From the NCBI GenBank assembly GCA_019192485.1, contig JAHCMJ010000003.1:1-41805 (forward strand): 41,805 nucleotides of DNA. Reading direction: 5' to 3'. This DNA is from Cyclobacteriaceae bacterium HetDA_MAG_MS6. GTDB lineage: Bacteria; Bacteroidota; Bacteroidia; Cytophagales; Cyclobacteriaceae. Positions within the stretch are counted from its first letter, which is position 1; each line of letters opens with the position of its first letter. Below, in pieces: positions 6,134-35,629 of this stretch. The position numbers and the translations under genes were made by a program. The notes beneath the pieces are model-generated. The model did no database searches, had not been told where the DNA came from, and saw only the letters and a program-made list of their open reading frames with translations.

Positions 6134-8707
6134 TTGAAGCTCTATTCTTTAGCATGTTTGGTTGTTCTGGCATCCCTTCTGGGTTGTGCACCAGAGTCTT
6201 CAGGTCCTGTTAGTGCGGCATATCACAATATGACTGCACACTACAATTCGTATTTTATTGCTAAAGAACGAATAAAGGAAATCGAGACTAACCTGAACAC
6301 CCAGTACCAATGGAATTACTCCAAGATACTGCCCATATACCCCCAGTACGATACGACTTTCAGCAATTCACAAAAAGATGCATTAGAGGACTGTATCAAA
6401 AAGGCATCTCTTTCGATTCAGCGACACCCAGGATCCAAGTGGGCAGATGATGCTTACATTTTGGTAGGGAAAGCCAGAATGTATGGATCAGAGTTTCCTG
6501 AAGCAATTGAGACCTATAAGTACGTAAATACCAAAGGTGAGAGTAAAAATGCCCGTCATGAGGGATTAGTTCAACTGCTTAGGACCTTTGTTGAATCGGC
6601 GGACTTTAATAATGCGGTAGCGGTCTCCGACTATCTCAAAAAAGAATCCCTTTCGTCGGCAAACACCAGAAACCTCTATCTCAATCGAGCCTATATGCAC
6701 CAAAAACGCAAGGAACTAAATGAGATGGTTAAAAACCTGGTCCTGGCAGAAGAGCTCATGAATAAAGGAAAAGAGCGAGCTAGAATAGACTTTATTATTG
6801 GTCAGGTTTACCAATCGCTAGGCTTTGATGCAGAGGCTTACAATTACTATCAAAAGGCTTTGAAAAAGAACCCTCCCTATGAGCTTGCATTCTACACAAA
6901 ACTTAATATGGCTCAAGTCACCCAGCTAGCAAATACAAGTGACCTGAAGAAAGTCTCAAAATACTTCAAGAGGTTGCTCAACGATCCTAAGAATCTGGAA
7001 TACAAAGATCGCATCTATTATGAGATGGGTGATTTTGATTTTAAACAGAGCAAGCTTGCAGAGGCCATAGCCGACTACAAGCTGTCCGTAGCATCCAGCA
7101 CTAAAAACCAACGCCAAAAAGCGTACTCTTATCTCAAGCTAAGTCATATCTACTTTGACAGCCTCAAAAATTTCAAACTCGCCAAAAGATACTACGATAG
7201 CACTGTCAGTACGCTCCCAAGAGATGAAGAAAACTATGAAGCAATCAAAGCCAGACAGGAAATATTGACGGAGTTTGTCACTTACGTCACGACTATCCAG
7301 GAAAATGACAGCCTACTTGCTTTGAGTGTGATGGATGCCGACTCATTAGATCAATTACTGACCGAGGTTGTTCTTGAAAAAGAAAGGCTTGCTAAAGCGG
7401 AAAAAGAACGAAAGAAGAAACAAGAACGAAGAGAGAGAGCGGCAGCGACAGCCGGCACATTCGCGCAAAACCAAGAAGCAGCTACCATATCCACCGCCAC
7501 TACCGGGACTTGGTATTTTTATAACCCTACGGCCGTGAGCAAAGGACAATCAGAATTCCTCCGGACATGGGGAGATCGATCATTGGCAGACAACTGGCGA
7601 ATCCAAAGCATTTCAGCTGTCTCCGATGACAACAAAGAGGAGCAGAATGCAGAGTCCAACACGAAGAAGGAGCCAACGGAAGAGGAAGAGGTTGGGTTTG
7701 ATGTCGAAGGCGAAAAAAGCGCGCTCATGGCTACCATACCTAATACCGAAGAGCAAAAACAAGGACTATTGACAGAAGTTGAAGAGGCTCATTACGGACT
7801 AGGCAACTTGTATAATTTCCGCCTACATGAACGTGAAAATGCTATTTCAACCTTTGAGACAATGATCGACAGGTTCCCGGAGTCCGGATACAAACCTGAA
7901 GTTCTTTATCAATTGTACTTGCTTACCAAAGAATTAGACTCCGCCAAGTCCGCCAAAGCCGCGGGCATATTACTTGCCGAATTTCCAGATGAGATTTACG
8001 CTAAGCTGATCGTCAATCCTAATTTCAGAGAAGACAATCTGGCACTTACCAAAAAGCTACAAGTTGTCTACGATTCCGCCTATCAATATTATGTCAATTT
8101 CCAACATGAGATTTCCAACAGAATTATTGACAGCATCACCTATATACACCCAGAGTCTGATCTCAGTGACAACTTTGCACTACTTAAGGCTATGAACCTT
8201 GGCAGAATCGAAGGCGTCTATAAGTACCAGTATGAACTCAACAACTTTATAAATGAATATGCATCGAGCGAACTAGCAGACTATGCAAAAATCTTAGTGA
8301 AGGCCTCTGAAGACTATCAAATTAACCTTTTCAGCAGTTCTAAGGGCAAGTACATCAAAAACTTTAATGTTCCACACTATTTTATACTAACATACGAGAC
8401 CAATCAGGAACTCTCAGAAAAACTTCCAATCGATGTCAAAGCGATGTTGGATCGTAGAAACTTTCAATTAAAATCAGGAAATCTGGTTTTGGACGAAAGT
8501 TATGCCATGGTACTTGTAGAGTCCTTGCCCGGTAAAGGAACGGCTAATTCCTTTGCAAAAGCATTTGCACAAGATGTTGATCTAACTGAAAAGTATAAAG
8601 GAGAAAAATTTTATAGCTTCGTAATAACTAAGGAGAATTTTGAGATTCTTTATCAGACGAAAGACTTGCAGTCTTATCTTACATTTTACGAAAAAAATTA
8701 TCCATAG
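6134..8707 (+). CDS. porW: PorW/SprE-type T9SS lipoprotein with TPR repeats
   Basis: An 857-residue lipoprotein. The start MKLYSLACLVVLASLLGC has a clear lipobox ending at Cys18, and the mature N-terminus contains AYHNMTAHYNSYFIAKERI, the hallmark of the PorW/SprE family, which is required for T9SS secretion and gliding. Many TPR-like helical repeats (about 60-380 and 550-700) are interrupted by a Lys/Glu/Arg-rich coiled segment (about 410-440) and an acidic linker (about 500-540). Length is close to the usual ~870. A TAA stop lies a few codons upstream and the next ATG falls after the lipobox, so the TTG at 6134 must be the start. The stop codon abuts the PBP start. Confidence 0.88.
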   Translation: MKLYSLACLVVLASLLGCAPESSGPVSAAYHNMTAHYNSYFIAKERIKEIETNLNTQYQWNYSKILPIYPQYDTTFSNSQKDALEDCIKKASLSIQRHPGSKWADDAYILVGKARMYGSEFPEAIETYKYVNTKGESKNARHEGLVQLLRTFVESADFNNAVAVSDYLKKESLSSANTRNLYLNRAYMHQKRKELNEMVKNLVLAEELMNKGKERARIDFIIGQVYQSLGFDAEAYNYYQKALKKNPPYELAFYTKLNMAQVTQLANTSDLKKVSKYFKRLLNDPKNLEYKDRIYYEMGDFDFKQSKLAEAIADYKLSVASSTKNQRQKAYSYLKLSHIYFDSLKNFKLAKRYYDSTVSTLPRDEENYEAIKARQEILTEFVTYVTTIQENDSLLALSVMDADSLDQLLTEVVLEKERLAKAEKERKKKQERRERAAATAGTFAQNQEAATISTATTGTWYFYNPTAVSKGQSEFLRTWGDRSLADNWRIQSISAVSDDNKEEQNAESNTKKEPTEEEEVGFDVEGEKSALMATIPNTEEQKQGLLTEVEEAHYGLGNLYNFRLHERENAISTFETMIDRFPESGYKPEVLYQLYLLTKELDSAKSAKAAGILLAEFPDEIYAKLIVNPNFREDNLALTKKLQVVYDSAYQYYVNFQHEISNRIIDSITYIHPESDLSDNFALLKAMNLGRIEGVYKYQYELNNFINEYASSELADYAKILVKASEDYQINLFSSSKGKYIKNFNVPHYFILTYETNQELSEKLPIDVKAMLDRRNFQLKSGNLVLDESYAMVLVESLPGKGTANSFAKAFAQDVDLTEKYKGEKFYSFVITKENFEILYQTKDLQSYLTFYEKNYP

Positions 8708-10990
8708 ATGAGCAAGAATCGGGCAATAAAGATCATAATAGTTATAGTTTGGCTACTGTTTGTCCTGGGTGTCGTGGGTATACCCGGTCTTTTTTCAATG
8801 GTGAAAAATAATGCCTTCGGGTGGTTCGGTGGCCTTCCTAGCTTACGCGCTTTAGAACGACCCGATCCCGACCTCTCGTCAGAGTTGATCAGTGCAGATG
8901 GCGAATCCCTTGGTAAGTACTATAGAAAAAATAGAACGCCAGTTACCTACGAAGAATTATCTCCTCAATTAGTGAATACCTTATTGGTTACGGAAGACAT
9001 TAGATTCAAAAAACATGCTGGTATTGATCTAAAAGGTTTGATAAGGGCAATTGCAGGGAAACTTACTTTCCAGTTTCGTGGAGGAGGAAGTACTATCACC
9101 ATGCAATTAGCCGAAAACCTGTTTAGGACATCCACCGAAAACCAAGGGTCTCTATATGATATTAGAGGAGTTGGGCAACTGATCACTAAGTTGAAGGAAT
9201 GGATCATAGCTGTTCAGCTTGAGGAGTCTTATACCAAAGAAGAAATCCTAGCCATGTATCTCAATACAGTTGAGTTCGGATCGAATTCCTATGGTATCAA
9301 GGTGGCCGCTAAAACTTTCTTCAACAAGCTCCCCTCACAGCTAGATTATCAGGAGTCTGCTAGTCTCATCGGATCTATCAATGCTCCTACCAGGTGGAAC
9401 CCAGTTTTCAATCCGGACAATGCGAAGAGAAAAAGGACTGAGGTACTTCACAATCTACTGAAGTACAGTGTCATTGATCGGGAACTCTTTGACAGTCTCA
9501 AAAATCAGCCATTAGCGTTAAACTACAAAGTTGAAAGTCATAATGAAGGCCTTGCAACCTATTTCCGCTCAGTTGTTAGAGATTTTCTTCTCAAGTGGTC
9601 AAAAGAAAATGGACATGATCTATACGAAGATGGCCTGAAAATCTATACGACTATTGACAGCAGAATGCAACAATATGCAGAGGAGGCCATGAGTGAGCAC
9701 ATGGACACTTTACAACAGATCTTTGAGACACATTGGGGAGACGACAACCCCTGGATAGGCGGCGATGGCAATGAGTTGGAAGGTTTCATCGAGGATGAAA
9801 TTAAAAAAACTCCGCATTATAAGGCACTTGCAAGAAACTTTGGTAAAGATTCTGATTCCGTTGCAGCAATCCTTAATCGCCCGAAAAAGATGACAGTCTT
9901 CAGTTGGGACGGTGAGAAAGATACTACCCTCAGTCCAATGGACTCGCTCCGATACTACAAACGTTTTTTGCAAGCGGGCTTTATGGCTATGGAGCCTAAA
10001 ACCGGTCATATCAAGGCTTGGGTGGGCGGTATTAATTATAGGTACTTTAAATATGACCATGTAATGAGGGGAAAGCGACAACCAGGATCTGTGATCAAGC
10101 CAATTGTGTACACAGCAGCTATTGACAATGGTTATTCACCTTGCCTTACGGCAGCAGATGTGCCATTTACCTTTTCCAGACCAGGGGAAAACCCACCAAC
10201 ATGGACACCAGACAATGCCAGTGGCAAGTTTAGCGGAGAGATCATGACTATTCGCCGTGCCATGGCGAGATCGATAAATAGTATTACTGCTTGGATGATG
10301 AGTAAAGTTCGTCCCAGAACCGTGGTAGACTATGCAAAGAGACTAGGTATAAAGAGCCCTTTAGCGCCAGTACCAGCACTGTGCTTGGGGGCCGGAGGGG
10401 ATGTATCCGTATATGAACTTGTCGGAGCCTATTGCACATTTATCAATAAAGGATCTTACACTGAGCCGTTTTTCATTTCCCGAATCGAAGATCAAAACGG
10501 CAATGTTATCCAGCAATTTGTCCCAGAGGTAAAAGAAGCTATCAACGAAGAAACAGCATACCTCATGCTTCATATGCTCAAAGGAACTGCTGAGGAACCT
10601 GGAGGTACAGCCACACCTCTAGACCTAAGACTCAGAACAAATAACGAAGTAGCAGGTAAAACAGGTACTACTCAAAACGCTTCAGATGGATGGTTTATTG
10701 GAGTGACCAAGGATTTGGCTGCTGGTGCTTGGGCTGGAGGAGACAATAGGAGTATTCGTTTTAGAAATGGTTATTGGGCATTGGGACAAGGAGCCAGAAC
10801 AGCCATGCCCATTTGGGAAAAGTTTATGCTCAAGGTGTACGACGATCAAACACTTCCCTATTCCAAGGGTAAATTCGACCCTCCTTTAAAGCCTCTGTCC
10901 GTAGAACTTGACTGTTCTCTCTATGGTGAAACTCAATTCGAATCTGATACTGTTGACTTTGAAGTCATAGAGGAGGAGGATATTTTCTAG
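8708..10990 (+). CDS. Class A penicillin-binding protein (PBP1A-like)
   Basis: A 760-residue bifunctional peptidoglycan synthase: glycosyltransferase plus DD-transpeptidase. One N-terminal membrane helix (about 8-30) is followed by the GT51 domain with the catalytic TEDIRFKKHAGID (Glu96) and GGSTITMQLAENL. The transpeptidase domain has the SxxK pair Ser461/Lys464 in PGSVIKP, the SxN motif Ser522-Ile-Asn524, and KTGTT at Lys651. All motifs are intact. It starts directly after the porW stop codon and ends 3 nt before uvrC, so the three genes are probably co-transcribed. Confidence 0.96.
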   Translation: MSKNRAIKIIIVIVWLLFVLGVVGIPGLFSMVKNNAFGWFGGLPSLRALERPDPDLSSELISADGESLGKYYRKNRTPVTYEELSPQLVNTLLVTEDIRFKKHAGIDLKGLIRAIAGKLTFQFRGGGSTITMQLAENLFRTSTENQGSLYDIRGVGQLITKLKEWIIAVQLEESYTKEEILAMYLNTVEFGSNSYGIKVAAKTFFNKLPSQLDYQESASLIGSINAPTRWNPVFNPDNAKRKRTEVLHNLLKYSVIDRELFDSLKNQPLALNYKVESHNEGLATYFRSVVRDFLLKWSKENGHDLYEDGLKIYTTIDSRMQQYAEEAMSEHMDTLQQIFETHWGDDNPWIGGDGNELEGFIEDEIKKTPHYKALARNFGKDSDSVAAILNRPKKMTVFSWDGEKDTTLSPMDSLRYYKRFLQAGFMAMEPKTGHIKAWVGGINYRYFKYDHVMRGKRQPGSVIKPIVYTAAIDNGYSPCLTAADVPFTFSRPGENPPTWTPDNASGKFSGEIMTIRRAMARSINSITAWMMSKVRPRTVVDYAKRLGIKSPLAPVPALCLGAGGDVSVYELVGAYCTFINKGSYTEPFFISRIEDQNGNVIQQFVPEVKEAINEETAYLMLHMLKGTAEEPGGTATPLDLRLRTNNEVAGKTGTTQNASDGWFIGVTKDLAAGAWAGGDNRSIRFRNGYWALGQGARTAMPIWEKFMLKVYDDQTLPYSKGKFDPPLKPLSVELDCSLYGETQFESDTVDFEVIEEEDIF

Positions 10991-29132: not shown

Positions 29133-29855
29133 TTACCCTCTCATCTTATATAATATGAGAAGATCCAGGAAATAGCTTGAGGTGTCTTCTAAGTCATTGA
29201 TGAAAATCTCAATCTTATGCTTGAGATAGTTGAAAAATAGCTGAAGGACAACTGCGATGATAAGCCCACTCACAGTTGTGATTAATGCGACCTTAATCCC
29301 GGAAGCTACCACACCAGCATTCATCCCTTGACTCGCATCTAACAGGGCTATGGCATTGAATGCCTGTATCATACCCAGTACTGTGCCCATAAACCCTAAC
29401 ATGGGAGCCAGAGAGATGAAAAGTGTCAGCCAGGGTAACCCGTCTTCGAGCCTACCTCTTTGCACTGAAATATGGGATTCTATATTCTCTTGGACCTTGT
29501 TAAAACCTCTTGGTAATGCATCAAGGCTTTTTATAAAAATGCTAGCCGCGATCCCTTTGTGCTCCTCGAGACTTTTGGGAATTCCTGAAAGGTTGCGGTC
29601 GGAAAGTATCTCTTCAGTCTTCTTAAGTATTTTGGTATGATCCCCATTCATTTGATGTAAATGAATCAATTTTTTCAGGAAGATCATCAATCCTAATACC
29701 AGGCAGATCAAAGTAAGCGTCATAAACTGCCAACCACCTTCAAAAAATTTTTCCTTAATCTGACTATGGAATGAAGATACTGGTGGCACAGTATTTTGAG
29801 CATAGATCATATTGTTGAGAAGAAAAAGAAGAAACATTGAAATGGGCTTTTTCAT
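29133..29855 (-). CDS. MotA/TolQ/ExbB-type proton channel protein
   Basis: A 240-residue membrane protein of the ExbB/TolQ family. From the ATG at 29855 it has a signal-like helix ending MIYAQ, then a transmembrane helix (about 45-63, FMTLTLICLVLGLMIFL) and the family core: RGRLEDGLPWLTLFISLAPMLGFMGTVLGMIQAF, then ASGIKVALITTVSGLIIAV. The conserved G-x-x-G-T-V and T-T-x-x-G motifs are intact. Such proteins form proton-driven motors with ExbD/TolR, but no such partner gene is adjacent. A longer frame to 29942 would run into the divergent gene, so the shorter start is preferred. Confidence 0.87.
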   Translation of the reverse strand: MKKPISMFLLFLLNNMIYAQNTVPPVSSFHSQIKEKFFEGGWQFMTLTLICLVLGLMIFLKKLIHLHQMNGDHTKILKKTEEILSDRNLSGIPKSLEEHKGIAASIFIKSLDALPRGFNKVQENIESHISVQRGRLEDGLPWLTLFISLAPMLGFMGTVLGMIQAFNAIALLDASQGMNAGVVASGIKVALITTVSGLIIAVVLQLFFNYLKHKIEIFINDLEDTSSYFLDLLILYKMRG

Positions 29856-29898
29856 TATTTTTTCTTTCAATTGTAGATTGTTTATAGCCTCTAAGTCA

Positions 29899-31338
29899 AT
29901 GAAAATGGGTAAACGACATATATCCATGGCAAACAACATCACGATCTATGCGCAGGTGAAGAGATTGGTCAGCTCCAATAGACAAGCTTACCCTCTCATA
30001 GCAGCTTTTTTTGTTTTTTGGGGGTACGATCTACATCAGATGATTTTAAATTCCTCCTCAGTATCAAGTCGAAAGTTTGAGTACTGCCAATCTTGCTCTT
30101 CACAAAATGCCTTTGGACAAGGTATATGGGACAAGCAAAAACCTGACGCTGAGCATTACTGGATTAGGACGGAGATAGCACTTGGGGAAGGTGAGAAATG
30201 GGATCATCTACTGATGAGATATCCTGGGCAATATCGCCTATTTTGGGACGGGTATCCGATAGGTACAAAACAAGGGAAAAGCCCTTTTAATGTAAGTGCC
30301 ATATTCAATATTGACAAGCAATTACTTACTGCAGGGAATCATCACATTCTCCTGGAGGTACTAGATGAAGTCGAAGTATTACCTGGCTTATTCAGGCCAG
30401 AGGTAAAACTGTCTTCTGAAAAGTTATTGATAAGTAGCTATCACCAAAAAGCCTTCCAATTGTTGCTTTTATTCGGATTACTTGGTTTGGCACTTACGTA
30501 TTGGTTTTTTAATCATTCGCGTCACAAGTCCCTGCTAATTGCTATTTGTATCACTTTACTAGGCTATATCTGCATCTCCTGGATAGCACTTGTCCATGAT
30601 CAACCTCTTGATTGGTCTGGGACCAATATTGTCCTGGTCATGATGCTTATGTATCTAGCTCTATTTTATAAGGTAGGTACCTGTTTAAACAAGCCCCAAT
30701 TCAAACTCTTTTTCTGGATCTTACTTTTTTCATTTGCACTTGTTTATGTGATGTTTTCCCGTCCAATAGAACATCTTTTTCTCGCTACTATCATTGTCAT
30801 TGTAATCCCCCTGACAACGCTGGTCTATCTTCAAAATATTCGATACTTCCTAATTGGCTTTAGTATGCTGGTGATCCCCTTCACAGGACTGTGGGAGATA
30901 GGCTCATGGATAGTCATCACCTCGGGCATAATATACGCTCTGCTCAGTGAATTGAAGTCCGAACCTGCCCGGAAGCAACATACCCCTAGACCAGCTAAGA
31001 AAACACATACCATAGCAAAATACTTACTGGTCAACAGCAAAGGAGAGAAGAAAATGGTACGATTAGATGATGTCGCCACCATCAAAGCAGCTAATAACTA
31101 TTCGGTAATTGTCATGTCAGATGGCGAGCGATTTCTACATGACAAATCCTTGAGTAAACTATCCCCTGGCTTACCCAGAAGCTTTCGTAGAGTACACAAG
31201 TCTTACATCGCTAACTTTGACCATGTCCAATCCGTACATGCTAAACCTGGCGGGGGAAAATACCTATCACTCGAAAACAGGGAACATATCCCGGTAGGCA
31301 GAGTCTTCGCAAAGGAGCTAGATGTGGTCTTGGCCTAA
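29899..31338 (+). CDS. Membrane-bound LytTR-family regulator
   Basis: About 479 residues from the ATG at 29899 (29905 and 29926 are equally possible). One N-terminal helix (about 26-44) is followed by an extracytoplasmic beta-sandwich-like domain (about 50-175, with a C-x-x-C pair and LTAGNHHILLEVLDE, reminiscent of 7TMR-DISMED/galactose-binding domains), seven transmembrane helices (about 180-370) and a C-terminal cytoplasmic LytTR DNA-binding domain (about 382-479, RLDDVATIKAANNYSVIVM, FRRVHKSYIANFDHV). This is a one-component sensor that would act on DNA from the membrane. It is divergent from the ExbB-like gene by about 43 nt, suggesting a shared control region. Confidence 0.87.
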   Translation: MKMGKRHISMANNITIYAQVKRLVSSNRQAYPLIAAFFVFWGYDLHQMILNSSSVSSRKFEYCQSCSSQNAFGQGIWDKQKPDAEHYWIRTEIALGEGEKWDHLLMRYPGQYRLFWDGYPIGTKQGKSPFNVSAIFNIDKQLLTAGNHHILLEVLDEVEVLPGLFRPEVKLSSEKLLISSYHQKAFQLLLLFGLLGLALTYWFFNHSRHKSLLIAICITLLGYICISWIALVHDQPLDWSGTNIVLVMMLMYLALFYKVGTCLNKPQFKLFFWILLFSFALVYVMFSRPIEHLFLATIIVIVIPLTTLVYLQNIRYFLIGFSMLVIPFTGLWEIGSWIVITSGIIYALLSELKSEPARKQHTPRPAKKTHTIAKYLLVNSKGEKKMVRLDDVATIKAANNYSVIVMSDGERFLHDKSLSKLSPGLPRSFRRVHKSYIANFDHVQSVHAKPGGGKYLSLENREHIPVGRVFAKELDVVLA

Positions 31339-31342
31339 AACT

Positions 31343-31430
31343 TCACTCCTCTACCAACAGTAAATCAATCGTTCGGCGATCAATATCTGCCAGACGCACC
31401 ATACCCTCGCATTTGGTTTGGATGATTTCT
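31343..31430 (-). pseudogene. Truncated copy of the rnr 3' end with internal deletion
   Basis: 31353-31389 is identical over 37 nt to 33471-33507, and 31390-31430 matches 33622-33662 at 37 of 41 positions. The 114 nt between (33508-33621 of rnr, 38 codons) are missing, and both deletion ends in rnr carry the same 7-mer ATATCTG. Translated, the fragment reads EIIQTKCEGMVRLAD joined to IDRRTIDLLLVE and ends at a TGA at 31343-31345, 4 nt past the stop of the convergent LytTR gene. All four substitutions are synonymous. It has no start and is not an active gene; it is the tail of a second rnr allele. Confidence 0.9.
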
Positions 31431-31534
31431 AAGAAAGGACGTCATAGGATTTCAAGCTATTGTTCCTGATTCTATCTACCAAGTCGAGAGACTTCTATTA
31501 CTTTCTAAAACGATTTACTCTAAATTTGATACCG

Positions 31535-31930
31535 ATGAATGCAATAGTAAATAAGAGGATATTAGTAAGTTCAAGAATCATACTCCTAGGAATTTTTTCA
31601 TGGACTATCATAACTTTTGCATCAAGAAACATTCTAGACTTATTTTTTCCAGGATCTTTGCACGCTCTTCTTGGGGGCATGACTATCTGTGCATTTCTGA
31701 ATTCTTTTTTCCTTGTTGCTTCTTTAAAATTTCAATTCTCAAGAAAAAAGATTCTTCTGTCAATTGCGATGTATTCATTAATAACGGTTTTTATACAACT
31801 ACTTTACGAAACACAAGTTCTGCTTTTGAGAAGACCAGTTCCTATTTCCCGCTATTTAACAACGGCATGTTACTTGTTCACGACCAGTATAATTTTCAGT
31901 CTCTTAATCAGAAGGTTTATTCGTGAATGA
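31535..31930 (+). CDS. Small four-helix membrane protein (cassette gene 1)
   Basis: A 131-residue hydrophobic protein with four predicted membrane helices (about 11-30, 37-58, 68-88, 100-124) separated by short basic loops. I do not recognise a family. The ATG at 31535 is preferred over an in-frame TTG at 31460. TAAATTTG (31521-31528) matches the -7 promoter consensus only 6 nt before the ATG, which would make the transcript nearly leaderless; no -33 partner is visible, so this is weak. The 3' end overlaps the next gene by 8 nt (GTGAATGA), which argues for translational coupling. Confidence 0.72.
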   Translation: MNAIVNKRILVSSRIILLGIFSWTIITFASRNILDLFFPGSLHALLGGMTICAFLNSFFLVASLKFQFSRKKILLSIAMYSLITVFIQLLYETQVLLLRRPVPISRYLTTACYLFTTSIIFSLLIRRFIRE

Positions 31931-32618
31931 AACGATGCTATATCTATTTGTCTCCCTAATATATTTAGCTGTATTAGCACCAGACTTGCTCAAGCTTTTC
32001 AAGCTAATTCAAAGGCCATCAATTGAAACCAATCTTAGTCGATATCTAAAGAATATCTATCTTATTTTAATTTTCAAAGGTTTTACGCTTTCAATCATTT
32101 TGATTGTTTTCAAAGTAAATATTTTTCATTACTCTCACCCTATAAGTTACTCTGATCATAATAAGATTACTTTTTCCGATTTTAAAGGATTGAAAACTCC
32201 CGGGCAGCAGCATCAAGGAACTGATGATTTTGCATTTATCAAGACAAATATTGAAATAAAGTGGCATGATAATGCGGTTAGCGTCATCTCCTACTTTCAT
32301 CCGTCAAGGTCCTACGTATACTTTGATGATCTTGAAAACGAGGCGCTTCTGACACATGAGTTGTACCATTTCCATATCACAGAACTCTTCGCTAGGAAGA
32401 TAAGAAAGAAAATATCTGACATGAGAGACAAATCAGATAAATCGCAGATAAATGAATTATATTGGCTTCTTCTAAAGGAAGAAGATTCGATGCAATTGAA
32501 TTACGATTACGAAACTAATCATAGCCAATTGCTAGGCAAGCAACTGAATTGGCAAAAGAAAATTGATAGCCTATTGCTAAATCTTGGATTGTTTGAAAAA
32601 ACATTGGTTGAGTTTTAA
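31923..32618 (+). CDS. Membrane-anchored DUF922-like HExxH protein (cassette gene 2)
   Basis: A 231-residue protein with two N-terminal membrane helices (about 5-27 and 44-66) and an extracytoplasmic domain. That domain has KITFSDFKG (81-89) and then LLTHELYHFHITELFARKIR (142-161), containing the zinc-protease motif His145-Glu-x-x-His149. The order of a W/F-x-DFKG motif, a central beta region and HExxHF-x-x-T-E-x-x-A-R resembles the DUF922 family of putative metallopeptidases. The start is GTG at 31923 or ATG at 31935. Proteolytic activity is inferred; the substrate is unknown. The middle gene of a three-gene cassette, overlapping gene 1 and 23 nt before gene 3. Confidence 0.78.
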   Translation: MNETMLYLFVSLIYLAVLAPDLLKLFKLIQRPSIETNLSRYLKNIYLILIFKGFTLSIILIVFKVNIFHYSHPISYSDHNKITFSDFKGLKTPGQQHQGTDDFAFIKTNIEIKWHDNAVSVISYFHPSRSYVYFDDLENEALLTHELYHFHITELFARKIRKKISDMRDKSDKSQINELYWLLLKEEDSMQLNYDYETNHSQLLGKQLNWQKKIDSLLLNLGLFEKTLVEF

Positions 32619-32641
32619 ATTAGCGAATTGTTGTAAGAACT

Positions 32642-33382
32642 ATGAAAACAAAAACATTTTACGTCATTGTTTCTTGTATATCAATCCTAAGTTGTAGTGA
32701 TGATAGCAACTCAAGATATCCTATGCAGAAGAGATATTGGAATACTCAAGATTATGACCAAGTGATTCGTCAGATAAAGTACCATAACCCTAAAGAAGAA
32801 AGGTATCCTGAATTTAGCAACCCCAAAACCGCGCCAGTAATTCAGAAACTAGTTGATGTTCAAAACTTTCTCGTAGTTCTGACAGACGACCAATTAGGAG
32901 TAAACCACAGGAGCAAGCAAGCAACAGATTTTTTTGAAGAATACAAACAGCTGTCTAACGCTTATTATGTCATCGATCGACAGGATAATTTTGTTTATGG
33001 GGAAGAGCTTATTGCTATAATGAAATTTGGATTGGAATTGCAATTGCACTATTTCAAATTAGGCAATGATGATATATTGAAGGATGCTGATGACCCGAAT
33101 GCCCCTGAGATACAGAGGCTAGTAAAATCGAATGAAAGAACTATTACCAAAAATTTCAACCGTTATCTAGATTTTGTGAATAAGGAAACCGGTCTTGACG
33201 AAAAAACTTTGCGATCCTATTGTGATGGGATAAGTGTCTACTTTAATAAGTTGTACTCGAATTTCTCTAATGCAGATCCTCAAATAACCATAAAAAAAGC
33301 AGAACTAATGCTAAATAAAACCAAGAACGATAGTGTGCGAGACTCATTGACAGAACTGTTATCCATGTTAAAAAAAGTATAA
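32642..33382 (+). CDS. Lipoprotein of unknown function (cassette gene 3)
   Basis: A 246-residue lipoprotein: signal MKTKTFYVIVSCISILSC with the lipobox cysteine at 18, followed by an Asp/Ser-rich linker (SDDSNSR), which may favour a defined membrane location. The mature part is helical and charged, with paired helices around 75-110 and 140-200 and no membrane helix. No family is recognised. It follows the HExxH gene by 23 nt on the same strand and converges on rnr. Its base composition, like that of its two partners, looks more AT-rich than the flanking genes. A cell-envelope complex with the other two proteins is an inference from order and localisation. Confidence 0.78.
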   Translation: MKTKTFYVIVSCISILSCSDDSNSRYPMQKRYWNTQDYDQVIRQIKYHNPKEERYPEFSNPKTAPVIQKLVDVQNFLVVLTDDQLGVNHRSKQATDFFEEYKQLSNAYYVIDRQDNFVYGEELIAIMKFGLELQLHYFKLGNDDILKDADDPNAPEIQRLVKSNERTITKNFNRYLDFVNKETGLDEKTLRSYCDGISVYFNKLYSNFSNADPQITIKKAELMLNKTKNDSVRDSLTELLSMLKKV

Positions 33383-33454
33383 AGGTTCATAATTGCAAAA
33401 AGAGATTGTGGGCTCTATTACCCTCAGTCTTGGTTCTGAGACGTAAAGGTGGTT

Positions 33455-35629
33455 TTATGGTTTTGATTCCACCAACAGTAAATCAATCGTTCGGCGATCA
33501 ATATCTGTTTTGACAACCTGCACTTTCACTTCGTCACCTAATGAAATGATCCGGCCGTGTCTTTTCCCAATCACTCGAAATTGCTTCTCGTCAAACTCAT
33601 AATGATCATCGTCCATATCTGCTAGACGTACCATACCCTCGCATTTGGTTTGGATTATCTCTACGAAGACGCCCCACTCCGTGACACCAGAGACGATCCC
33701 TTGAAATTCCTCACCTAACATGCTGGTCATGAATTCCACCTGCTTGTATTTTATCGAGGCACGCTCTGCTTCTGCGGCTCTTTTCTCTCTCTCGGAGGAG
33801 TGGACACACTTCTTTTCATAAGATTCACGATCAGGAGACTTGTTGCCTCCGAGGTACTCCCACAGCAATCGGTGTACCATGACATCGGGATAGCGACGTA
33901 TCGGGGATGTGAAATGCGTATAATGCTCAAAAGCCAATCCGAAGTGTCCCCTAGGATCGGTGGTATATCTTGCTTTTGCCATAGAGCGTATAGCTAGAGA
34001 CTCCAATACATTTTGCTCAGGTCTGCCTTCTATATCGTTCATCAGCTTATTCAGGCTCTTGGAAACAGCGCCGGTTACTGTCAGTTTATGACCAAACTTG
34101 GCGGCAAATTGAGAAAAGGACTCCAACTTTTCCGGATCTGGATCGTCATGTGTCCGATAAACAAATGTGGATGACCCCTCTGGTTGTTTGCCTTCCTTTC
34201 TTTTGTAGATAAAGGTGGCAACCTCCCTGTTAGCAAGTAGCATAAATTCTTCGATCATCTTATGGGCATCCTTACGTTCCTTTGGCACCACCGCCAATGG
34301 CTTTCCTTGCTCATCCAGTTGGAACCGTACCTCAACTGTTTCGAAGTTCACTGCCCCGTCTTTGAATCTTTTATCTTTTAGCTGCTTTGCCAGGCTATTC
34401 AAAACCTCTAGTTCCCCAGCAAAATCTCCCTCCTTCTTTTCAATCCTCTCTTGCGCTTCTTCATAGGTAAAGCGACGATTGGACTTGATAATGCTCCGAC
34501 CAAAACTCTTTTTGGTAACTTTTGCCTTACTATCCATCTCGAAAATAGCGGAAAAAACAAGTTTTTCTTCATCAGGTCGCAGCGAACAAAGTCCATTAGA
34601 AAGCTTCTCAGGCAGCATAGGAATGGTCCGGTCAACTAAGTAGACCGAAGTAGCTCGCTCCAGTGCTTCGATGTCTAGAATAGTCTTGGGCTCGACGTAG
34701 TGCGATACATCGGCTATGTGCACCCCGATCTCATACTTGCCTTTGCCAATCTCCTGGATGGATAGTGCATCATCAAAGTCTTTGGCATCAATGGGATCTA
34801 CTGTGAAGGTGGTTATTTCCCTGAAGTCACGTCGATACTTCAACTCCTCGGGATCTATTTGATCCGAGAACTTATTGGCTGCTTGTTCTACCTTGTCCGG
34901 AAACTCAAAGGGTAATCCGAACTCCGCCATGATCGAATGAATCTCGGTCTCATTCTCTCCAGCTGCACCAAGTACCTGAATTACCTCTCCCAAGGGACTC
35001 TTGTTCCCTCTATCGTGCCACTTTTTGATGGTCACGATCACTTTATCATTGTGTTTGGCTTTGAGGATTTTCTCCGGGTATACGAATACATCAAAATGTA
35101 AATTGCGATTGTCCGGTACCACAAAAGAGTACTTTTCCGATATCTCGATTCTTCCGACAAAATCTGTCTTATGGCGAGATATTATTCGAAGGACTTTTCC
35201 TTCCGCTCTAAAGCCATCACTCGCAGGCCGAATAACCTGAACCTCCACACGATCTTTGTCTATCGCAAAATTCAAGTCTTCGGTCCGAACCCATATATCT
35301 TCCTCTACTTCGTCGCAAACGATATAGGCAAACCGTGCGTTGACGTGATCAACTGTGCCTTCATATGCTTCGGTTTCGACAAGGCTAACAAACCTTCCAT
35401 CACTTTTTCGCCGGATTTGATCTTTGGCCTCCATCCCGAAAAGCATGTCTTTTAGGGCATCCTTTGACTTCATGTCACGTAGGCGAAGCAACTTGATCAG
35501 TTGCCGGTAGCTATAGCTTTCGCCTGGGTTGGCGATAAATATCTCCTTCAATCTACGCTGTAAACCTCCTATTGGAATTTTTCCATTCTTTTTCCCCTTC
35601 GGTGGTTTCTTTTTCTTCTTTCTACTCAT
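33455..35629 (-). CDS. rnr: Ribonuclease R
   Basis: RNase R, 724 residues from the ATG at 35629, a processive 3'-5' exoribonuclease that degrades structured RNA. It begins with a Lys-rich stretch (MSRKKKKKPPKGKK), then a winged-helix-like N-terminal domain, cold-shock domains (about 80-240), the RNB catalytic domain with TVDPIDAKDFDDALS and the conserved HFGLAFEHYTHFTSPIRRYPD, and a C-terminal S1 domain (GIVSGVTEWGVFVEI, CEGMVRLADM). The frame stays open to 35731, but that would overlap the upstream gene by about 94 nt. The start lies 8 nt after the exonuclease stop, so it is the last gene of the manA operon. A partial copy of its tail lies at 31343-31430. Confidence 0.97.
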   Translation of the reverse strand: MSRKKKKKPPKGKKNGKIPIGGLQRRLKEIFIANPGESYSYRQLIKLLRLRDMKSKDALKDMLFGMEAKDQIRRKSDGRFVSLVETEAYEGTVDHVNARFAYIVCDEVEEDIWVRTEDLNFAIDKDRVEVQVIRPASDGFRAEGKVLRIISRHKTDFVGRIEISEKYSFVVPDNRNLHFDVFVYPEKILKAKHNDKVIVTIKKWHDRGNKSPLGEVIQVLGAAGENETEIHSIMAEFGLPFEFPDKVEQAANKFSDQIDPEELKYRRDFREITTFTVDPIDAKDFDDALSIQEIGKGKYEIGVHIADVSHYVEPKTILDIEALERATSVYLVDRTIPMLPEKLSNGLCSLRPDEEKLVFSAIFEMDSKAKVTKKSFGRSIIKSNRRFTYEEAQERIEKKEGDFAGELEVLNSLAKQLKDKRFKDGAVNFETVEVRFQLDEQGKPLAVVPKERKDAHKMIEEFMLLANREVATFIYKRKEGKQPEGSSTFVYRTHDDPDPEKLESFSQFAAKFGHKLTVTGAVSKSLNKLMNDIEGRPEQNVLESLAIRSMAKARYTTDPRGHFGLAFEHYTHFTSPIRRYPDVMVHRLLWEYLGGNKSPDRESYEKKCVHSSEREKRAAEAERASIKYKQVEFMTSMLGEEFQGIVSGVTEWGVFVEIIQTKCEGMVRLADMDDDHYEFDEKQFRVIGKRHGRIISLGDEVKVQVVKTDIDRRTIDLLLVESKP

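Follow-up and report, generated by a model that had tools for sequence, protein, structure and literature searches.

The window, by which we mean the whole 41,805-nt stretch analysed here, carries a three-gene module (g1, g2 and g3) between a gene for a LytTR-domain membrane regulator and the gene rnr for RNase R. A second, partial rnr 3′ end, referred to below as the scar, lies at the far end of the module, beside the LytTR gene (Table 1). The LytTR gene forms a pair with an ExbB-like gene (window 29133-31338), and G093 (L076) has this pair as well. No close relative of the LytTR gene was found in 295 genomes of the family or in the GTDB scan; the best full-length match (32%) is in G093.

Table 1. 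Features of the locus, with the integron-like arrays discussed in the text; positions refer to the window unless another locus is named.
Feature	Position	Strand	Evidence
LytTR-domain membrane regulator gene	29812..31338	+	Pfam LytTR, E=1e-16
Scar, decayed second rnr 3′ end	31343..31441	-	alignment to working rnr; own stop (VEE-stop)
Scar-operon junction, no recognisable homology	31442..31534	.	sequence inspection
g1, 131-aa multi-pass membrane protein	31535..31930	+	ORF; equivalent in L086, 25% identity
g2, 231-aa membrane-anchored DUF922-like HExxH protein	31923..32618	+	Pfam DUF922
g3, 246-aa helical lipoprotein, module marker	32642..33382	+	ORF and homologue search
Spacer from g3 to rnr stop, without attC-like site	33383..33454	.	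covariance-model search
Working rnr, RNase R, 724 aa, ends VESKP-stop	33455..35629	-	Pfam RNB, E=9e-112; CSD2; S1
rnr tail segment 1, matches scar	33468..33507	-	alignment
rnr tail segment 2, matches scar	33612..33671	-	alignment; intervening 114 nt absent from scar
Integron-like arrays	L231 2159-13407; L232 1338-16810		attC-type sites
Further integron-like array loci	L233, L234, L236, L237, L238, L127, L141, L143, L168, L176		

The three open reading frames of the module (31535-33382) are as the sequence-only reading gave them. Small membrane ORFs similar to g1 occur in several Cytophagales copies of the module (L087, L088, L125). G2 resembles Pfam DUF922 (PF06037) in a score just above the cut-off (27.5 bits, gathering cut-off 27) and in a conserved HExxH motif, whose H145, E146 and H149 are invariant in the alignment of 28 homologues. 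It differs from DUF922 by its N-terminal membrane helices, and about 60 residues of the model are matched, no more. The predicted structures of g2 and g3 have pLDDT values of 86 and 89, respectively; a fold search with both models returned no significant PDB match, and none of the three proteins matched a known defence family. Our guess is that the module acts at the cell envelope, through a membrane metalloprotease-like protein and a lipoprotein, possibly in competition or immunity. The GC content of the module is 0.32-0.37, below the 0.43-0.47 of rnr. The absence of an integrase, claimed earlier, is upheld: the sole trace is a sub-threshold Phage_int_SAM_1 match (E=0.001) for one of six g3 homologues.

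The scar has the same orientation as the working rnr. The sequence-only reading had placed this copy at 31353-31430, with 74 of 78 bases identical and all four differences synonymous. Re-alignment reproduced the identity and the nature of the differences, and the repeat is real, but its extent had been drawn too short, since it runs from 31343 to about 31441. Within the window it appears as two blocks, 31350-31389 against 33468-33507 (39/40 identical, E 6e-12) and 31380-31435 against 33612-33667 (89% over 56 nt, E 4e-14). The extended alignment covers 28 codons and holds six differences, every one of them synonymous; by chance this is expected with P=6.4e-4, the expected synonymous fraction being 0.29 even with strong transition bias. 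The C-termini also differ, LLLVEE in the scar and LLLVESKP in the working gene, and each has a separate stop codon, that of the scar being the reverse complement of 31343-31345. Synonymous-only differences together with different ends indicate that the two tails are two alleles which diverged under selection as working genes, as had been proposed. A hand estimate puts their synonymous divergence very roughly at 0.3 per site, a distance as between related species, not within one clone.

One of the two alleles is decaying. At about 100 nt the scar is short; it lost 114 nt of rnr by an in-frame deletion between two copies of the 7-bp repeat CAGATAT, and a 2-nt insertion near its upstream edge shifts the frame, with homology continuing beyond it. 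In agreement with the earlier claim, the working rnr has remained intact and the second tail is a scar. The scar is a decayed tail that had diverged earlier as part of a working gene.

In relatives the rnr protein continues for a short stretch past the DIDRRTIDL motif and then ends, for example with VTEE-stop or VQE-stop. Downstream of rnr, most of the 12 relatives inspected (L064-L075) have a polyprenyl-synthetase-like gene, often with a rhomboid-like gene too. The LytTR gene lies behind rnr (window 31336-33455) where most relatives have the polyprenyl-synthetase-like gene, showing that the region has been rearranged. The search for the rnr tail covered 245 family genomes and gave a match in 135; a tandem copy occurs in the source genome (G000) alone among them, and the rnr end as an insertion hotspot was rejected on this count. 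No comparable repeat pair or gene-tail duplication was found elsewhere in 528 kb of the source genome, window included. Its contig C9 (L187) holds a 127-nt intergenic repeat (8577-8703 and 10583-10709, 90% identical) flanking 1.9 kb, which might be another cassette. Contig C15 (L193, 10691-13365) holds three tandem genes with a conserved C-terminal part in common and different upstream parts.

The module itself is sporadic. Homologues of g3 are present in 7/195 other family genomes, scattered across genera, and at 54 GTDB loci in Cytophagales and Flavobacteriaceae. G2 precedes g3 at every GTDB g3 locus, and the g1-g2-g3 operon order is also present in other genomes. The neighbours mostly differ between loci, and none of the other copies adjoins rnr. 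This patchy occurrence with mostly different neighbours supports horizontal mobility of the module. Some copies have been inherited, as a few Aquimarina copies occupy one common site. Searches of plasmids, phages and viral contigs yielded no g3. Direct repeats surround g2-g3 in about a third of the g3 loci; at the stand-alone loci the flanking repeat differs each time and is non-homologous.

The same anatomy is found at a second gene. In G154 (L087/L124) the module lies directly behind a gene of the sodium-solute-symporter type, and the last 60 nt of this gene (8749-8808) are repeated at 6807-6866, across the module. The copies differ at nine positions, seven of them synonymous (P=0.0017), and the stop is kept in the copy. 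A search of 12 genomes gave no close orthologue of the symporter gene. This locus is the sole clear parallel to the rnr case, which brings the cases to two in total. A third gene-tail scar was considered at L146 in Aquimarina algicola and rejected, the repeat there belonging to a second, tandem lipoprotein paralogue that is split by g2-g3; the N- and C-fragment of one paralogue are both kept around g2-g3 (L146 5320-9578). In a second Aquimarina species, g2-g3 likewise lies among tandem lipoprotein paralogues (L156 6198-10103). In Mangrovivirga, L089 3492-4208 contains tandem 243-nt repeats that by eye resemble the tail of a REP-associated (RAYT-like) transposase.

The explanation we find the most probable, with some confidence, is that the module arrived together with a foreign tail of rnr, one flank being integrated by homologous recombination within rnr and the opposite flank by an illegitimate join. 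A three-gene module with the rnr 3′ end of a related lineage would have entered between the LytTR gene and rnr. Homologous recombination inside rnr would have left a working gene that probably consists of the resident body and the donor tail, ending in VESKP-stop. The other end of the incoming DNA would have been joined illegitimately inside the resident rnr tail, and the severed tail, ending in VEE-stop, would then have become the decaying scar. The same product would arise equally well from a single crossover of Campbell type, in which a circle brought in the module plus an rnr tail. We infer the donor, the joining route and which of the tails is foreign. The layout favours the scar as the resident tail and the VESKP-stop end as the imported one: the stop of the scar is 4 bp from the LytTR stop, as in an old convergent pair, and the working end faces the newcomer. 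With these 4 bp to spare, an insertion behind the stop could hardly have left the LytTR gene unharmed, and this is perhaps why the joint came to lie within the tail.

PMC3240628 documents integration in which one end recombines by homology and the other is joined illegitimately. The rnr locus resembles the homology-facilitated illegitimate recombination treated there in its one-sided homology, the illegitimate joining on the other side and the partial gene duplication, and the duplicated segment here is of independent allelic origin. It differs in that the event is read back from a natural, decayed scar and was itself unobserved. The scar gives a clear snapshot of a module devoid of a recombinase that was fixed beside a housekeeping gene, with the displaced allele still readable.

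Synonymous-only divergence would likewise arise from an ancestral tandem duplication of rnr, both copies working for a while before the module replaced most of the downstream one and left its tail. The L146 locus, where g2-g3 split a tandem paralogue, shows that a like process occurs. However, no rnr N-terminal fragment is seen by eye across the module, and each relative searched gave one rnr match, whereas the L146 lipoprotein forms arrays; we regard such a duplication as unlikely. Another possibility is that the rnr tail was duplicated locally as a dead fragment, while the module inserted or later. The sequence-only reading held a local duplication to be more likely if the scar matched this rnr better than any other allele. 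Literally this is so, the scar being closest to this rnr among the alleles compared, but all of these come from other genera, with no congeneric allele among them. A dead fragment would not be expected to show six substitutions that are all synonymous (P=6e-4), nor a different stop and different last codons, and we rate this origin as highly improbable.

Some genomic islands with a tyrosine integrase rebuild the 3′ end of the gene they enter, and the module locus is like them in having the intact gene on one side and the leftover tail on the other. The rnr tail could accordingly be the att site of a non-autonomous element served in trans by a site-specific integrase, and it is of note that the cassette form of g2-g3 adjoins a recombinase in Flavobacteriaceae. 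The module, however, contains no integrase gene, neither the window nor the source genome has an attC-like site, the target differs from locus to locus, and the repeats of the stand-alone loci are non-homologous. In the 245 family genomes searched the rnr end is not reused as a site, and its repeat is imperfect coding sequence. The site-specific, self-restoring mode suggested earlier is not borne out, and we hold it to be very unlikely. Finally, the assembly comprises 460 contigs and the repeat includes an exact stretch of 37 bp, conditions under which two strains in one metagenome bin might be joined into a chimera. Such a join would not create the deletion, the frameshift and the stop that the scar has of its own, and other genomes keep the same operon order; a chimera is the least probable of these accounts. 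We continue to prefer acquisition of the module with a foreign rnr tail, through homologous recombination at one flank and an illegitimate join at the opposite one.

At many Flavobacteriaceae g2-g3 loci the flanking repeat is not a gene tail. It is a site of 130-220 nt, and it follows almost every gene in an array of genes that all point the same way. These sites have AAC and GTT ends, an asymmetric unpaired spacer (3 vs 6 nt), unpaired stem bases and a variable top, and thereby match attC hallmarks described in PMC2727003. The stem has 18 predicted pairs, ten of them with compensatory changes. The bases before the AAC of a site are complementary to those after the GTT of the preceding site, which form the start of the same cassette. 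Complementarity of at least 6 nt was found in 59/81 adjacent pairs, against 2.4% of random pairs and 5/97 comparisons within one site. The ends of the g2-g3 cassette are identical (GTT/GTAGGT ... ACCTAC/AAC) in Algibacter, Gaetbulibacter, Polaribacter, Flavobacteriales ALC-1 and Wocania loci, and a single mobile cassette would be expected to give this pattern; the ends can be seen at L127 7286-8768, L137, L142, L143, L149 and L151. A covariance model of the sites identified them in 106/120 Flavobacteriaceae genomes sampled, many with at least 20 where the scoring stopped at 26, and a few array-type sites in several Cytophagales.

A tyrosine recombinase adjoins the array in seven genomes, reading in the same direction as the cassettes where the sites are resolved. 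Its open frame spans 381-416 codons in the six genomes with full alignments. Positions of about 2-181 and 239-315 of the IntI model are matched, about 181-239 are unmatched, and the score falls below the IntI cut-off; among its relatives of solved structure, XerC/XerA-type recombinases and IntI4 are the closest. The Flavobacteriaceae g2-g3 arrays are like integron cassettes and CALINs (PMC9024848, PMC2727003) in their AAC/GTT ends, their folded, covarying stem with an asymmetric spacer and their complementary cassette ends. They differ in the adjoining recombinase, which is extended at its N-terminus and is without the additional domain of IntI. The window copy differs further: neither the window nor the source genome gave an attC-like site in the covariance-model search, and integron insertion of the window module was rejected for this reason.

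In Bacteroidetes, the IntegronFinder 2.0 paper lists only In0 (integrase-only) elements and a complete Salinibacter integron (PMC9024848). We found no description of the array system in the open literature, subscription papers and preprints being outside the search, and its novelty is provisional. Tentatively, and at slightly less than even chances in our estimation, most Flavobacteriaceae may possess a class of Bacteroidota integrons that is as yet undescribed, that carries the module as cargo and whose integrase has the N-terminal extension but lacks the IntI insert. The copy behind rnr and the other Cytophagales copies that stand alone would then be relatives of such cassettes, fixed elsewhere by ordinary recombination. 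The module in this way points to a gene-capture platform across the Flavobacteriaceae, and standard integron surveys appear to miss such arrays. If the recombinase works as its sequence suggests, the IntI-specific domain is dispensable for capturing folded attC sites, which would bear directly on the origin of integrons from Xer-type recombinases. In G154, a small attC-like array is present, and elsewhere in it a single site lies near an IntI-like recombinase of 294 residues (contigs C80 3163-9615 and C91 80-2937).
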